Source of the DNA: Treponema sp.
Lineage (GTDB): Bacteria > Spirochaetota > Spirochaetia > Treponematales > Breznakiellaceae
DNA: 64,000 nt
Direction: 5' to 3'
NCBI GenBank assembly: GCA_009784975.1
Contig: WQXG01000001.1
Location: 1-64,000 of the forward strand
Shown here: in pieces, positions 969-9,338 of the stretch
How the letters are laid out: each line of letters opens with the position of its first letter
How positions within the stretch are numbered: the first letter of the stretch is position 1
Translations under genes and position numbers: made by a program
The notes under the pieces: model-generated
What the model was told of the DNA's origin: nothing
The model's input: the letters and a program-made list of their open reading frames with translations, nothing else
The model's database searches: none

Positions 969-1110
969 GTTAAATCAGATATTTTTGTTAGTTGAAGTTA
1001 AAATAATTAGTTTAGTTTTTAAACTAATAATGCCAAATATAAATAAGTATTTAGCATACTAATAAAAAGACTGCTTGTTGAGCGGGTATATTCTAGAAAA
1101 GGAGAAAAAA

Positions 1111-1224
1111 ATGACTTACAGCAAACCTCAGGTACTTGCACAAAACAGCAAGCAAGGATCATTTGCAGCGGGTTGTCCAGCTGAAAACAGATGGTGGTGT
1201 CAAAACTGCGAAATGAAACCGTAA
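1111..1224 (+). CDS. candidate RiPP precursor peptide, 37 aa: MTYSKPQVLAQNSKQGSFAAGCPAENRWWCQNCEMKP
   Basis: SD aaaggag 7 nt upstream; leader-like N-terminus, Cys/Trp-rich C-terminus with 3 Cys; located 64 nt upstream of radical SAM/SPASM protein with PqqD-like N-terminus. Below ORF-track length cut-off. Confidence 0.75.
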   Translation: MTYSKPQVLAQNSKQGSFAAGCPAENRWWCQNCEMKP

Positions 1225-1288
1225 TTTATTCTGAGAAAAAGAGTTTTTTCTGTTCTCTTGAAAAACAGAATTTAAAATAAGGAGTAAA

Positions 1289-2728
1289 ATGCTCTATCGG
1301 CAAAAATTCGATACCTTTATTCGCCGCTACGATGACGTGGGATATATTATGAATAAAAGCGACTTAAGTGACCGTGTCGTCGATCTAGCAGGAGCTGTTT
1401 TTCTCGAAGTGCTTTCTCGGAAAGGTCAGAGTATAGAAGTGCTTGCTGTGAAAATTGCACGAACATTTATTGACGTTGATATAAATACATTAGAAAAAGA
1501 TGCTGCAGAATTTTATGCCATGTTAGAAGAGGATGGCTTCATAGTCTCTGGCGAAACGGAAGAGGAACTTGACAGAAAAGATACACGCTTTTCGTATTCT
1601 ACGTTGAATCCTAAAACTGTCAGAACCGATTTTACCCCTGGAATTAAACGTGTGAACAAAACTACCCAAGAATTTCTTAATGAAAATTTCAAGGATAATC
1701 CGCATTTAGCTTCATTCCAAATAGAGCTTACAAGTCGTTGTAACGAGCGTTGTATTCATTGTTATATTCCACACAAATATAAACTCGAAGATATTGCTCC
1801 AGATTTTTTTTATGACGTGCTTGACCAATGTAGAAATATGGGATTACTCAGTTTAACTCTATCTGGTGGTGAACCGATGTTACATCCAATGTTTTGCGAT
1901 TTTTTGAGTAAAGCAAAGGAATATGATTTTTCTATCAACATTCTTTCTAACTTCACCCTTCTTAACGACGAAATAATTGCAGAAATGAAGGCAAACCGCC
2001 TTTCTAGTGTTCAGGTATCGCTGTACAGTATGAAACCAGAAATACACGATGGTATTACGAAACTTCCTGGCTCTTTTGAAAAAACGAAAAACTCAATTCT
2101 GAAGTTGATTGAAAACAATATACCATTGCAAATAAGCTGTCCCACCATGAAACAAAACAAAAATTGCTATATTGATGTAATGAAGTGGGCACGAGAGAAC
2201 AAATGTCGCACGGTATCTGACTTCATAATGATGGCACGCTACGACGGTTGTGTCGAAAATTTGGAAAACCGACTTTCTATTGATGAGACGGAAAAACTTA
2301 TAAATGATGTTCTTGACAACGATCAAGAATATAGGATGGAATTGCTAGGTGCAAATATCGATGCTATCAATGTTCGGGATATTTCCGAAGACAAAATTTG
2401 TGGTGTGTGTATTGATACTCTGTGCATGGTGGCAAATGGTAATGTCTATCCTTGCTCTGGTTGGCAGAGCTATGTTTGTGGCAATTTAAAAGAAACCCCA
2501 CTACGTGAGATTTGGGAAAACTCATCCAAGGTCATGTATTTGCGTAGCTTGCGTAAAAAAGATTTCCCAATATGCCTTGAATGTATAGATAGAAATTTCT
2601 GTGCGATGTGCATGGTTCGCAATGGTAATGAGGATCCTGATGGTAATTTTCTAAAAATTAACGAGCACTTCTGTAAGGTAGCAGCACTAAATCGTAAAAT
2701 CGTTTTAGAATGGAAAAAAGCACACTAG
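1289..2728 (+). CDS. radical SAM/SPASM peptide maturase with N-terminal PqqD-like (RRE) domain
   Basis: CNERCIHC (CX3CX2C) motif; C-terminal SPASM cysteines (CGVCIDTLC...YPCSGW...CLECIDRNFCAMC); ~95-aa N-terminal PqqD-like region. Confidence 0.85.
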   Translation: MLYRQKFDTFIRRYDDVGYIMNKSDLSDRVVDLAGAVFLEVLSRKGQSIEVLAVKIARTFIDVDINTLEKDAAEFYAMLEEDGFIVSGETEEELDRKDTRFSYSTLNPKTVRTDFTPGIKRVNKTTQEFLNENFKDNPHLASFQIELTSRCNERCIHCYIPHKYKLEDIAPDFFYDVLDQCRNMGLLSLTLSGGEPMLHPMFCDFLSKAKEYDFSINILSNFTLLNDEIIAEMKANRLSSVQVSLYSMKPEIHDGITKLPGSFEKTKNSILKLIENNIPLQISCPTMKQNKNCYIDVMKWARENKCRTVSDFIMMARYDGCVENLENRLSIDETEKLINDVLDNDQEYRMELLGANIDAINVRDISEDKICGVCIDTLCMVANGNVYPCSGWQSYVCGNLKETPLREIWENSSKVMYLRSLRKKDFPICLECIDRNFCAMCMVRNGNEDPDGNFLKINEHFCKVAALNRKIVLEWKKAH

Positions 2729-2746: not shown

Positions 2747-3190
2747 TTGCATTGTTCAGTATATGACATAGGTAAATTGACGGATTATAAATTCGTTGTT
2801 ATATTTGCTCGTTTTAATTATAAATGGGTATTATGCAAACATAAAGATAGAATTACCTGGGAGTTACCCGGAGGGGGTATCAAACTTGGTGAGACAACAA
2901 TAGATGCAGCAAAAAGAGAGTTATATGAGGAAACAGGAGCAATAAATTTCAGCATCATTCCTATTTGTGATTATAGTTTTTCATTATCAAACGCTCAGGT
3001 ATTTTTTGCAAGTATTGATAATATTGGTAATATCCCAGAAAGTGAAATTGATTATGTGCAATTTTTTGATACATTTCCTGAGGATATAACATATCCTGAG
3101 GATAAAAACGAATTAATACCATATGTTCTAAATAAAATAAAAGAGAGGAATATATATGATTGTAAAACATACTATAGACGATTTCAATAA
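2747..3190 (+). CDS. Nudix hydrolase (TTG start)
   Basis: Nudix box GGIKLGETTIDAAKRELYEETGA. Confidence 0.8.
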   Translation: MHCSVYDIGKLTDYKFVVIFARFNYKWVLCKHKDRITWELPGGGIKLGETTIDAAKRELYEETGAINFSIIPICDYSFSLSNAQVFFASIDNIGNIPESEIDYVQFFDTFPEDITYPEDKNELIPYVLNKIKERNIYDCKTYYRRFQ

Positions 3191-4013
3191 CCTTTGGCAA
3201 TTATCAGAGGCTGGTAAATCCGCAAATTCAAAAGTGTTTTGGGCAGATATAGCCGACAATTGGATTTCTGAATTCGTTTCAGAGGAAAAAGGTAAGCCTT
3301 GGGTTCATCATAGAGTATGTGCAACATCAAATTATTTAAAACAAAACGATTTGATAAACTCGAAATGTTCTGTTGTTGATATTGGATGCGGTCCAGGTCT
3401 TTTTGTAATAGAATTTGCTAAAACTGCAAAATACGCAATGGGTATAGATTATTCAAATCGTTTTATTCAATATGGTCGCGATGTTGCAAAAATTCAAGGA
3501 ATACATAATGTAGAATTTTGTGAATATGATTTTGAAAATATAGATATTGATAGCATGGGACTTACAGGAGCCTTTGATTTAGCATTTTCTTGTATAAGTG
3601 GTGCGATTTGTTCTTTGGAATCAATTAATAAACTAATGAAGATGAGTCATTCATGGTGCTATTGTTCAAATTTTGTAAGTGTGAATGATAGTCTTATAAA
3701 AGCAATTTGTTATGATATTTTTGGAGAACATTATAAATCTCATCATAATGGAACTGGCTTCTACTCTCTTTTTAATATTCTTTGGTTAATGGGTTATCGT
3801 CCTGAAACAAACTACTTTGTAGAGTCTCATACAGAAGTAATTGTACCTACATGGGAAAAAGCACAAGAATTTGCAAATAGGTGTCATCATAAAACACCAG
3901 AAGAAACAGAAAAAATATTTAATTGGCTTAATTCACATAGAGAGATAGAGCGGAAGGTAGAATATGCCTACGGTGGAATTCTTTGGGATATTCGTATAAA
4001 GGATGGGCGCTAA
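3156..4013 (+). CDS. class I SAM-dependent methyltransferase
   Basis: VVDIGCGPGLFVIEFA motif I. Confidence 0.8.
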   Translation: MIVKHTIDDFNNLWQLSEAGKSANSKVFWADIADNWISEFVSEEKGKPWVHHRVCATSNYLKQNDLINSKCSVVDIGCGPGLFVIEFAKTAKYAMGIDYSNRFIQYGRDVAKIQGIHNVEFCEYDFENIDIDSMGLTGAFDLAFSCISGAICSLESINKLMKMSHSWCYCSNFVSVNDSLIKAICYDIFGEHYKSHHNGTGFYSLFNILWLMGYRPETNYFVESHTEVIVPTWEKAQEFANRCHHKTPEETEKIFNWLNSHREIERKVEYAYGGILWDIRIKDGR

Positions 4014-4061
4014 GTAAATAAAGATACTGTGAAAGATAAATATTAACTAAGGAGTAATAAT

Positions 4062-5033
4062 ATGCAAAAAAACAATGTTTTAAATAATATTACAGTGGCA
4101 AAGATCGTTACTGGTACTTACGGACAAAAGGGTTGTACTTGTAATTGCCCTGGATGTTTTTTAGGAACTTATGATGCATTAGGTAAACCAAAATATCAAG
4201 GGACAATAGAGCAAGTTATTGAAATGGTATCCCTATTACCAAACTTGAAGTCTGTCATATTATATGGAAATCCGGATATATCTGTTGATCCGCAGTTTTG
4301 TAATGAAGCAGCAAAATATCTTCAATCCCTTAAAAAAAGTATAGTTATGTTTACTTCTGGTATTGGCGGTGCAAAAATAATTAAAGAAATTATGAATGGT
4401 ATTAATCCTGAATCTGTTTCAATAAATATTTCTGTTGATTCAATTGATGAGAAAAAACTTCGTATGTTACGGGGATGTAATATATCATTACAAAACATTG
4501 TTGATAGTATGATGTGTTGTAATGAAATAAAAGTTCCTTTTAGTATATCAACAAATATTTGGCCATTGACAGCAAATGATGACTTTTTTAATTTTAAAAA
4601 ATATTTTTTATCGTACGGTGCTCAAAAAATCCGTTTTCATTTTGGATCACCTGATGGTGCAATAACAGAAATGCCCCATATTAATGAAGATTCATTTTTA
4701 GAAATAAGAAATAAATTAAGAGAAGTGGGCGGCAGGGTACCTGCTATTCTTGTTACTAAAGAAGAATATGTCAAATGGAAGCTGGATACCTATCGCCCAC
4801 AGTGTATTAAAGCACATAAACTGCATGTTTTTCTTGAGCAAGATGGAATAAAAGCAGCAGCATGCTGCGGAATATTAGCACAACAAAATCCAGAAAAACA
4901 TATTGTTGACATCAGAAAAGTTGAACATCTTGAATCAAGCAATGTAAAACGGTGTCCTTGTGCAGAAAAAAGTTTGGGATATAAATGTAATTTTTTAATT
5001 CCTGTTTGCAGAAGTTTTAGCTGTCCGGAATAA
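4062..5033 (+). CDS. radical SAM protein (second maturase-type)
   Basis: CTCNCPGC gives CX3CX2C; radical SAM TIM-barrel-like strands; Cys-rich C-terminus. Confidence 0.75.
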   Translation: MQKNNVLNNITVAKIVTGTYGQKGCTCNCPGCFLGTYDALGKPKYQGTIEQVIEMVSLLPNLKSVILYGNPDISVDPQFCNEAAKYLQSLKKSIVMFTSGIGGAKIIKEIMNGINPESVSINISVDSIDEKKLRMLRGCNISLQNIVDSMMCCNEIKVPFSISTNIWPLTANDDFFNFKKYFLSYGAQKIRFHFGSPDGAITEMPHINEDSFLEIRNKLREVGGRVPAILVTKEEYVKWKLDTYRPQCIKAHKLHVFLEQDGIKAAACCGILAQQNPEKHIVDIRKVEHLESSNVKRCPCAEKSLGYKCNFLIPVCRSFSCPE

Positions 5034-5084
5034 GTTTTATAAGAAATAAAGAATCTAATTTAATATAAAATGAGGTAATGAAAA

Positions 5085-6434
5085 TTGTTTGATGTTGTAA
5101 TTATTGGTGCTGGTCCAGCAGGATTATCTGCGGCATATTCATTAGTAAAAAATAATTCTAAACTAAAGGTTGCATTATTTGAGGCTGGTAGTAGCAGAGA
5201 TAAAAGTATATGTAGTTTACCAACAGAATCACAATGTAAAAAATGTGAAAATTGCGAAACAATTACAGGTTTTGGTGGATGCTTTTTGCCCTTTCATGCA
5301 TCAAAACTCAGCTTTCCTCCATCGGGTAAGCGATTGGCAAAAATTATGGGAGATGATGAATACAAAAGAATTTGTAAAATTATTTGGTCTTTATATTGTG
5401 ATTTAATTAAAAAACCTGATTTGGTTTATCCAAAACTAATAGAGAACATCAATTTACTGGAACGTTCAATAATATCACGTAATTGTGAAATGGTTTTATA
5501 CAAATATCCAATTCATCTCTCAAATGAAAAAGAACATTCACTATTCATTAATGAAATATATAAAACATTGGTAGAAAATGATGTAGAAATATTTACTAAC
5601 CAGTTTATTGATATTGAACATAATATTGATATTAAAAATAAAACATTGACAATACGTGGAAATGACACTATTAAGTTCAAGAGTATCTTTTTGGCAACTG
5701 GAAGACGTGGTTTTAATCAAACGCAAAACTTTTTTAATGCAAATGGAATTTTAAGAAAAAAAGAAAATGCTAATTTTGGTATTAGATATATGATACCATC
5801 AAAATATCTCAATATAATATCCTCCTTACATCCAGATTTTAAAGTAAAACTTCAAACGCCAGAAGCAGAACTTGAGACGTTTTGTTTCAGTAATAGTCAT
5901 AACGGAGGACGTGTTGACTTTTTACAATATGATGAATTTTTAAATATAGATGGGCATATCTCTGTTAATGCTGAAGGTGATATGATAAAAAATATGGCTT
6001 ATGGAAATTTTGCAGTACTCTATAAAAACCTCAAAAAAATTATAACCTACAAAGAAATTGTTTCTCGTATAGATCAAATGACTATTCATAATTTTAAACG
6101 AATTCCCATTGGGAATTCTTTATTTGTATCAAACAATTCTGAGTTATCGCAATTTTTTCACGAATTTGAGTTTAAAAGCATAATTAAATTTTCTATGGAT
6201 ATTTTTAACATTATCGCAGACCTTAATAAGATTGATTTAGATAATCTTCTAAAAGAAATATATGTATATGGTCCTGAAATAGAAAATATCTGGGGTGAAA
6301 TTAAAATAATAAATAGCTCTTTTGAAATTGCTGATAATGTTTTTGCAATTGGCGATTGTACAGGTCTTGCTCAAGGGGTTATTTCATCCATGGCAATGGG
6401 ATATAAAGCAGGTGAAATGTATGGGTGTAAATAA
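5085..6434 (+). CDS. FAD-dependent NAD(P)-type oxidoreductase (TTG start)
   Basis: GAGPAGLSAA dinucleotide fold; C-terminal AIGDCTGLAQGVISSMAMG; extra Cys cluster CSLPTESQCKKCENC. Confidence 0.8.
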   Translation: MFDVVIIGAGPAGLSAAYSLVKNNSKLKVALFEAGSSRDKSICSLPTESQCKKCENCETITGFGGCFLPFHASKLSFPPSGKRLAKIMGDDEYKRICKIIWSLYCDLIKKPDLVYPKLIENINLLERSIISRNCEMVLYKYPIHLSNEKEHSLFINEIYKTLVENDVEIFTNQFIDIEHNIDIKNKTLTIRGNDTIKFKSIFLATGRRGFNQTQNFFNANGILRKKENANFGIRYMIPSKYLNIISSLHPDFKVKLQTPEAELETFCFSNSHNGGRVDFLQYDEFLNIDGHISVNAEGDMIKNMAYGNFAVLYKNLKKIITYKEIVSRIDQMTIHNFKRIPIGNSLFVSNNSELSQFFHEFEFKSIIKFSMDIFNIIADLNKIDLDNLLKEIYVYGPEIENIWGEIKIINSSFEIADNVFAIGDCTGLAQGVISSMAMGYKAGEMYGCK

Positions 6435-6460
6435 TAAACCCCAGTCTATACTGTGGCTGA

Positions 6461-7144
6461 ATGAAGGATAAAAGTATGAATGAAGATATTAGGAAATATT
6501 TTGATAGAGCAGAAAAGTACGAAAAATCTCGCCCAGAATATCCAAAAATTATTTTGGATTATTTATTAAGTTTTGATTTTTCAAAAAATACAATAATCGC
6601 CGATATTGGTTCTGGTACAGGAAAATTATCAAAAATATTTCTGGAAAATGGTAATAAAGTATATACTGTAGAACCAAATGAAAATATGAGAAAAATGACT
6701 GATTCATTATTTGGTAAATATAGTAATTATCATTCAATGAATGGAACCGCAGAAAATACAGGATTACCAGATAAAAGCATTGATATCATTACTGTTGCAC
6801 AAGCATTTCACTGGTTTGATACAATAAAAGCATTAATGGAATTTAGAAAAATATTAAAAGATAATGGATTATTGATTTTATTATGGAATAAAAGTAATGC
6901 GAAAACGATATTCCAAAAAGAAATTAATAATATATTTAGTAATATTATTAATAAAAATGAAACGATTCATAACAAATTATCAGAAAATGACATAATAAAT
7001 ACATTTAAAATATTTTATAAAAAAGTTGTTATTGAAAATTATGCGGATAATGATTTCAATGATGTGATAGATGGAATATTTTCTTATCCTTATGCTCCGG
7101 AAAAAGGTACATCAGAATATAAAGAAATATATAATAAGATATAA
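6461..7144 (+). CDS. class I SAM-dependent methyltransferase
   Basis: IADIGSGTGKLSKIFLENG; AQAFHWFD motif. Confidence 0.8.
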   Translation: MKDKSMNEDIRKYFDRAEKYEKSRPEYPKIILDYLLSFDFSKNTIIADIGSGTGKLSKIFLENGNKVYTVEPNENMRKMTDSLFGKYSNYHSMNGTAENTGLPDKSIDIITVAQAFHWFDTIKALMEFRKILKDNGLLILLWNKSNAKTIFQKEINNIFSNIINKNETIHNKLSENDIINTFKIFYKKVVIENYADNDFNDVIDGIFSYPYAPEKGTSEYKEIYNKI

Positions 7145-7222
7145 ATAATATTTAATAAATATAATAATAATGGAATAGTTAAATATAATTATGATACAGA
7201 AATATATATTGGGAGTATATAA

Positions 7223-8143
7223 ATGATATACAAATTATTAAAAAATTGGGATATAGCCGAAATTCTTTCATATACAGAATTGAAGAAAAATATTTATAAA
7301 ATAGAAACAACAGGAAATTATTACATCTTGAAATCTAAAAATTATTCTAATAAAAATATATATGAAAACTATCATTTTAATGATAAAAATATTGAATTTC
7401 AAATTGAAAGTCCTATTTTAACTAAAGAAGGAAAATATTATATAGAAAATAAAGAGAAAATACATGTTCTGTTTAATTTTATAGATGGGAAACATATTAA
7501 TGAATATTATAACGATAACTATTTAATACAAGCAGAGTTAATAGGGAAGACAATCGCTTCTTTTCATTCTATTATTAGAGAAAAAGAGAAATATAACTTA
7601 AAAAATATGGATATAACTGAAAATATAATAAATAATGTGTATAATACAATATTAAATAATAAAACAATTATTGATTTTAATTTTATTTCTATGTTAATAG
7701 ATGACTTTAAGCATAACTTTATTTCATTATATAACGATTTACCAAAACAAATTATTCATAAAGATATTCATACAAAAAATATCTTGTTTAAAAACGGTAA
7801 AATATCTGGAATTATTGATTTGGAATTATTAACATATGGGATTAGAATATATGATGTATGTTATTGTTCTGCAAATATTTTATGTGATAAAATTGATGAC
7901 AACATAAATATAAATAAATGGTTCAAAATATTTTATCAGATAATTAAAGCATATAATAGTATTATAAAAATAACAGAAAATGAAAAGAAAGGTATAGTTT
8001 ATGTTCTTTATTCAAACGAATTAAAATATATAGATTTTTATATTAAACAAAAAAATATGAAAGGAATAAAAACAGCAGAAAAAATGTTAAAATGGTTATA
8101 CGGGAATCAACAAAAAATTAAAAATGAAATTGATAAAATATAA
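7223..8143 (+). CDS. aminoglycoside phosphotransferase (APH)-like kinase
   Basis: IIHKDIHTKNILF catalytic loop and GIIDLE. Confidence 0.75.
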   Translation: MIYKLLKNWDIAEILSYTELKKNIYKIETTGNYYILKSKNYSNKNIYENYHFNDKNIEFQIESPILTKEGKYYIENKEKIHVLFNFIDGKHINEYYNDNYLIQAELIGKTIASFHSIIREKEKYNLKNMDITENIINNVYNTILNNKTIIDFNFISMLIDDFKHNFISLYNDLPKQIIHKDIHTKNILFKNGKISGIIDLELLTYGIRIYDVCYCSANILCDKIDDNININKWFKIFYQIIKAYNSIIKITENEKKGIVYVLYSNELKYIDFYIKQKNMKGIKTAEKMLKWLYGNQQKIKNEIDKI

Positions 8144-8158
8144 GAGGGTATTTTAAGT

Positions 8159-8677
8159 ATGGATAGAAAAAGAGTAATAGCAGCAATAATTTATGAAAGT
8201 AAAATTGCAATGATATACAATATTATTGAACCTAATAAAATGTTTTGGACTCTTCCTGGCGGAAGAGTAGAAAATGGAGAAAATCTGGAAGAAGCTGTAA
8301 TTCGTGAAGCATTAGAAGAAGTAAATTTAAATATAAAAATAATAAGATACCTATTCAGTCGAAAATACTCAGATGGAATTGAACATTGTTTTTTAGGAGA
8401 GCCATTAGATCCGGAAAATATTAAGACTGGAAGTGATCCAGAATATAAAGCAGAAAAACAAATAATTAAAAAAGCAGAATGGAAAAATATATTAGATGTT
8501 AAAAATGATATACAGGTATCAATTGTATTAAAACATTTAACTGAAATTGAATGTTTTAAATATAAAATTAATGATGGTTTTAAGAGTGATAAAGATTTAG
8601 TAATTTCAAATATTGAAATGGCAATTGAAATTGATTCCCAAAATAAAGATTATCGTGAAGCCCTTGAAGAATTATAA
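8159..8677 (+). CDS. Nudix hydrolase
   Basis: GGRVENGENLEEAVIREALEEVNL Nudix box. Confidence 0.8.
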   Translation: MDRKRVIAAIIYESKIAMIYNIIEPNKMFWTLPGGRVENGENLEEAVIREALEEVNLNIKIIRYLFSRKYSDGIEHCFLGEPLDPENIKTGSDPEYKAEKQIIKKAEWKNILDVKNDIQVSIVLKHLTEIECFKYKINDGFKSDKDLVISNIEMAIEIDSQNKDYREALEEL

Positions 8678-9098: not shown

Positions 9099-9338
9099 AT
9101 GGCAGACATTAGAGACGTAAACGGCAATGTAACCCACAGGAGAAACGGAAATGAGATTAGGGATCTTTCTGACAGAGTAACTCACAGAATAAACGGCAAC
9201 GAAATCAGAGACGTTTCTGACAGGGTTACCCACAGGATTAACGGCGATGAAATCAGGGATATTAATGACAGAGTTGTTTATAGAATAAGCGGCAGCGAGA
9301 TAAGGGACGTTGGCGGTTCTGTAACTCATAGGTTTTGA
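9099..9338 (+). CDS. solenoid-repeat protein, five 16-aa units (NGNEIRDVSDRVTHRI)
   Basis: SD aaaggagc; internal 48-bp tandem repeats in phase with codons. Confidence 0.75.
   Translation: MADIRDVNGNVTHRRNGNEIRDLSDRVTHRINGNEIRDVSDRVTHRINGDEIRDINDRVVYRISGSEIRDVGGSVTHRF

Follow-up and report, generated by a model that had tools for sequence, protein, structure and literature searches.

What is the short open reading frame that precedes a radical SAM/SPASM gene near the start of this Treponema contig, and what does the neighbouring enzyme make of its product? The question is addressed here for the window, meaning the whole stretch of 64,000 nucleotides, in which the first-pass annotation had read the frame as a RiPP precursor. 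That reading is supported by conserved peptides beside homologous maturases. The best reading of the pair is that it forms a branch of a new RRE-dependent radical-SAM RiPP family, probably one that makes Cys thioethers, as far as chemistry can be deduced from sequence. The family spans several bacterial phyla, has no Pfam or NCBIfam model, and no description of it was found in the literature searched. It is of the same kind as known systems; what is new is the precursor family, a partner enzyme in most relatives and an unexpected carriage on plasmids.

A conserved precursor gene

The precursor gene comprises the following features:

1097..1104, + strand: Shine-Dalgarno sequence aaaaggag, 6 nt before the ATG
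1111..1224, + strand: precursor peptide gene, 37 aa
1111..1173, + strand: leader, M1-G21, with YSKP (residues 3-6) as the likely RRE-binding motif
1174..1221, + strand: core, CPAENRWWCQNCEMKP, in which Cys22 and C30xxC33 are conserved and WW is not

The encoded peptide is MTYSKPQVLAQNSKQGSFAAGCPAENRWWCQNCEMKP, its stop codon lies at 1222-1224, and 64 nt separate the gene from the maturase ATG at 1289. The frame, its Shine-Dalgarno sequence and this spacing had all been described in the first-pass annotation and are present in the DNA as written there; its plausible division into a leader up to about G21 and a Cys-rich core from C22 is likewise supported. The three cysteines are the conserved feature of the core. 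An AGGAG-type Shine-Dalgarno site also precedes nearly all the homologues. A longer start at TTG 1075 was rejected because the homologues begin at the MxY position. A hairpin or attenuator between the two genes was also rejected, the region folding no better than shuffled sequences (z -0.10). The peptide has no NCBIfam match and Pfam gave only a chance match (E 0.6), which agrees with the earlier statement that no named family could be recognized.

A frame of only 37 codons might be thought to arise by chance. In 203 genomes of the same family as the window, the peptide is present in 13, the window's included, and most of these also hold an orthologous maturase with 57-71% identity. The set was enlarged with peptides encoded ahead of maturases in other spirochaetes, in a Proteiniphilum bin and in a gammaproteobacterium. 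It comprises 26 distinct peptides with homologous maturases (again counting the window's), here referred to as AAGC-type, with the consensus M-x-Y-x-K-P-x-[VI]-[LVI]-A-Q-N...[FY]-A-A-G-C-P...C-x-x-C-[ED]-R. In all 26 the core's first Cys follows the Tyr at a distance of exactly 19 residues. Conservation beside maturases and a coding signal were the checks that had been proposed for this peptide, and both have now been run: it is conserved, and in the leader the pooled pN is 0.25 and the pS 0.76 (uncorrected proportions), that is, a pN/pS of about 0.3. Where 250 nt or more of sequence precedes a maturase homologue of at least about 38% identity, a peptide of this kind is encoded there, either next to the maturase or separated from it by a second enzyme gene; YxKP peptides persist beside several homologues at 33-37% identity. 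In its six frames the window has a single match to the pattern Y-x-[KP]-P-x-hyd-hyd-A with a short tail after it. Chance origin is excluded because the pattern is unique in the window and because 26 such peptides accompany homologous maturases; with homologues in register and at fixed spacing, purifying selection in the leader and Shine-Dalgarno sites, the probability left to a chance frame is negligible. These comparisons show a gene under selection that occurs together with its maturase and diversifies along with it.

The maturase and its putative leader-binding domain

The adjoining enzyme shows the features listed below:

1279..1284, + strand: Shine-Dalgarno sequence aaggag
1289..2728, + strand: radical SAM/SPASM maturase, 479 aa
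1289..1582, + strand: RRE-like (PqqD-like) N-terminal domain, residues about 1-98
1721..2188, + strand: radical SAM domain, residues 145-300, with CNERCIHC as CX3CX2C (C151, C155, C158)
2399..2674, + strand: SPASM region, residues 371-462, with C374-x9-G384-x4-C389, C429-x2-C432-x5-C438-x2-C441 and C462

The combination of radical SAM, SPASM and PqqD-like RRE domains that the first-pass annotation had assigned to this protein was recovered by domain matches for Radical_SAM (5.6e-20) and SPASM (8.6e-9), and for the N-terminus by a match to the PqqD-like model PF05402 that lies below its cut-off (0.0012), by the predicted fold and by Foldseek. The fold is predicted as beta-beta-beta-alpha-alpha-alpha-beta, with a pLDDT of about 74-90 over residues 31-100 in a model of medium overall quality (mean pLDDT 60). 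Foldseek aligned this part with TbiB1 (5v1u; 87 columns, target TM 0.81, rmsd 2.5), the lasso-peptide RRE solved with its leader. For the whole predicted model the matches were SuiB, at the top, anSMEcpe, SkfB, CteB and PqqE, and none of the NCBIfam equivalogs attains its cut-off with this protein. Among 14 aligned maturases, the radical SAM cysteines C151, C155 and C158 and the SPASM cysteines C374, C389, C429, C432, C438, C441 and C462 are invariant, as are C371 and C379 within the SPASM region, and C284 and C293.

YxxP is a characterized RRE recognition motif of lasso peptides, and related W/Y/LxxP-type motifs have been assigned to PqqD and to the sactipeptide protein StsC (PMC12710340). 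The conserved YxKP of the leader, common to both core classes described below and to homologues of 33-37% identity, fits this motif, and the N-terminal domain may bind the leader there. The iron-sulphur enzyme very probably modifies the 37-residue peptide chemically.

Core classes and distribution of the family

A sister branch of maturases is accompanied by peptides with the same leader and a different, nearly invariant core, CRPNSKPSGRPCNPP, with two cysteines (the GRPC class). Its peptides resemble MxYxKPEILAQSTxxMAECRPNSKPSGRPCNPPKPGGR, and its maturases (about 38-56% identity) occur in Bacteroidota, a Pseudodesulfovibrio bin, a Deferribacteraceae bin, Pectobacterium and two Spirochaetota genomes; the names Proteiniphilum, Parcubacteria and Pseudodesulfovibrio are provisional, since these hosts are metagenome bins. 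The core is near-invariant between Bacteroidota and Pseudomonadota. Maturases of the GRPC class group as a single clade in the maturase tree (support 100/99), and three changes account for the three core classes, compared with 17.2 in shuffles; core type thus tracks the maturase tree, and enzyme and core evolve together. A third core type, MSYQKPQ[IV]LA...LYMMPC...C, is seen in two tandem precursors before one maturase (L085:1123-1224 and L085:1317-1415, + strand).

Other arrangements were also noticed. In the genome G057 the maturase is broken into pieces in different frames (L066:8229-8738, - strand), with an intact precursor upstream. At L089:180-1499 and L098:4772-6091 (both + strand), precursor and maturase are separated by the gene of a 439-aa protein that has a PqqD-like RRE and no match to radical SAM. 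A second radical SAM/SPASM enzyme adjoins the maturase at L057:2964-4037 and L079:2964-4373 (both - strand), and in L057 a small protein is encoded immediately upstream of this second enzyme.

Plasmids carry the GRPC-type two-gene unit as well, namely conjugative IncF plasmids from E. coli and Salmonella and a plasmid from Photobacterium, with a maturase of 46% identity and the precursor 75-77 nt upstream of it. The plasmid precursor/maturase cassettes are:

L069:11809-13437
L070:9809-11437
L071:2782-4410
L072:9807-11428

They come after a resolvase-type recombinase, and L069 also has a Tn3-family transposase. In the gene tables for these four plasmid relatives (incomplete by their own statement), the precursor is not listed as a gene. 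The cassette is present in five PLSDB records of E. coli plasmids and was not matched in E. coli complete genomes. A phage origin was discarded, as phage records gave no match, and so was a defence system, PADLOC giving only a general viperin-like similarity of the radical SAM protein. The distribution is patchy: two sets of sampled genomes, of 399 and 387, each gave two carriers. This plasmid occurrence, the second core class and the amidohydrolase found in most AAGC-type relatives were all missed by the first-pass annotation.

The amidohydrolase partner

An Amidohydro_2-type gene follows the maturase in 16 of the 20 AAGC-type loci with enough downstream sequence, compared with none of 14 GRPC-type loci (p about 2e-6 with loci counted as independent, a value that overstates independence because the loci are phylogenetically related). 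The metal site is kept (HxH, two further His and an Asp), and no PDB relative was found by sequence. Of the 16 systems that have the hydrolase, 13 carry the C-terminal motif CxxC[EDQ]R, as does one of the five that lack it (Fisher p 0.025, from few, related loci). Since the motif tracks the hydrolase, the hydrolase step might take place at this motif. The gene is absent from the window locus and was not found in the window's assembly (95% complete), and the window core has CEMKP in place of CxxC[EDQ]R. Lacking both the amidohydrolase and the usual C-terminal ER, the window could therefore hold a reduced or altered system.

Gene neighbourhood and possible role

Downstream of the maturase, a tight same-strand run at 2747-8677 encodes a Nudix protein, a methyltransferase, a second radical SAM enzyme, an FAD enzyme, a methyltransferase, a kinase-like protein and a Nudix protein. 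Intergenic distances between -35 nt (an overlap) and about +80 nt, and a Nudix start only 18 nt past the maturase stop, could suggest that the run shares the pathway of the precursor in a larger RiPP cluster with extra tailoring. This is quite improbable: its genes recur in none of the related loci, and a search of 200 genomes of the family gave no relative of the second radical SAM protein at E<=1e-15. Having no relative in the other loci, the downstream genes were rejected as part of the precursor/maturase unit. No transporter, peptidase or immunity gene recurs across about 40 loci, and this lack, together with Cys-rich cores and with a GRPC core kept near-invariant from Bacteroidota to Pseudomonadota, unlike typical antimicrobials, is consistent with a modified peptide that acts as an internal cofactor, metal ligand or redox carrier and not as a secreted signal or antimicrobial. 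Such a role is suggested only tentatively, as the mobile and patchy distribution given above is unsuited to a core cofactor and the core loop of the AAGC class is hypervariable.

Near the contig start, two tandem genes for 90-aa paralogues, 64% identical and with no Pfam or NCBIfam match above cut-off, lie at 273-545 and 696-968. A repeat gene of NGNEIRDVSDRVTHRI-like units is located at 9099-9338, with partial copies at 124-237 and 616-657.

Chemistry of the core

In the AAGC class Cys22 is present in 26 of 26 peptides and CxxC in 22. The WW pair, emphasized in the first-pass annotation, does not belong to this conserved set: it is confined to the window copy, any W occurs in only six of the 26 cores, and the pair was rejected as a crosslink site. 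In sactipeptides the Cys sulphur is joined to an alpha-carbon, and in ranthipeptides to a beta- or gamma-carbon. A Cys-based thioether of either sort would be the most economical chemistry for this system, as suggested by the conserved cysteines and the type of enzyme. It is important to note that Cys22 and CxxC lie 5 to 20 residues apart, depending on the peptide, and that no acceptor residue is conserved between them, which is unusual for a defined crosslink and a real weakness of the thioether proposal. Both points would suit a maturase that makes a C-C or C-O crosslink, an epimerisation or another radical change, leaving the cysteines for metal binding or disulphides. This is a possible, less favoured explanation. 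In its favour, the nearest fold is SuiB, a C-C cyclase, metals are commonly bound by CxxC motifs, and the invariant C284 and C293 of the maturase could be catalytic. Against it, the top folds also include SkfB and CteB, which make thioethers, and the cores of both classes keep cysteine but not the Trp acceptor usual in known C-C cyclases.

Comparison with known systems

The general features of RRE-dependent radical-SAM RiPP systems are found here, namely a conserved adjacent precursor, intact radical SAM and SPASM cysteines, and an RRE with a leader motif. The SuiA/SuiB system of streptide has the same RRE-radical SAM-SPASM architecture, and SuiB is the top structural match. However, streptide contains a Lys-Trp C-C bond, while here Cys and not Trp is conserved (20 of 26 cores lack Trp, so that the conserved acceptor is missing), and the sequence similarity of the maturase to SuiB is marginal (E 0.006). 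The ranthipeptide systems SCIFF/CteB and PapA/PapB likewise process a small Cys-containing precursor with an RRE/radical SAM/SPASM maturase, and CteB is among the top folds. SCIFF ranthipeptides have six Cys in about forty-five residues; SCIFF was ruled out because the window peptide has three in 37. The maturase scores 51.2 bits against the PapB model NF047865, whose cut-off is 340. Sactipeptide systems (SkfB, AlbA, StsB) share a Cys-containing core and a radical SAM maturase, and no PDB sequence matches better than that of SkfB (E 9.4e-12), but the scores stay far from the sactisynthase cut-offs (SkfB 53/300, AlbA 52/850 and StsB 66/625 bits) and no transporter or immunity genes lie alongside. 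With lasso B1/RRE proteins (TbiB1 with TbiA) the RRE fold and a YxxP-type leader motif are shared (PMC12710340), whereas here the motif starts at residue 3 of a very short leader and neither a lasso cyclase nor a B2 protease is seen beside the pair.

A search of the text of openly available papers returned none with the motif strings of the family. With the same coverage, nothing matching the precursor family appeared in work on spirochaete, anaerobe or plasmid radical-SAM RiPPs. Nor is it described in published passages on spirochaete RiPPs (PMC4289311) and Bacteroidales RiPPs (PMC10352776).

Proposed mechanism and biological meaning

In the proposed mechanism, the N-terminal RRE domain would bind the leader around Y3-S-K-P6 and present the core from C22. 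The radical SAM centre would then make a 5'-deoxyadenosyl radical that abstracts H from a core residue, and the SPASM clusters would help to join that residue to a Cys sulphur, most likely giving at least one thioether at C22, C30 or C33. In most AAGC-core relatives the adjacent Amidohydro_2-type metal hydrolase would add a further step, which the lineage of the window is without. With neither a peptidase nor a transporter conserved next to the two genes, leader removal and export would fall to enzymes encoded at other loci. The pair would represent one branch of the unnamed family, the other branch having the near-invariant two-Cys core and occurring on conjugative plasmids. That the two genes encode a RiPP precursor and the maturase acting on it in this way is proposed with high confidence. 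A bolder proposal, and an unlikely one, is that they define a new RiPP class, in which a radical-SAM-modified Cys core and a dedicated amidohydrolase (tracking CxxC[ED]R) yield a new intracellular structure, while mobile two-gene versions on conjugative plasmids or transposons benefit the plasmid or the host.

The curated models tested miss this family of modified peptides, which combines one leader with two or more core types and is present in several phyla, including on plasmids whose hosts are human-associated. Its near-invariant plasmid core and its class-specific amidohydrolase allow specific tests of the bond made, of the role of the hydrolase and of the reason why conjugative plasmids bear a peptide maturase without an exporter. 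The plasmid branch is open to study in E. coli laboratory strains, where iron-sulphur enzymes are tractable.
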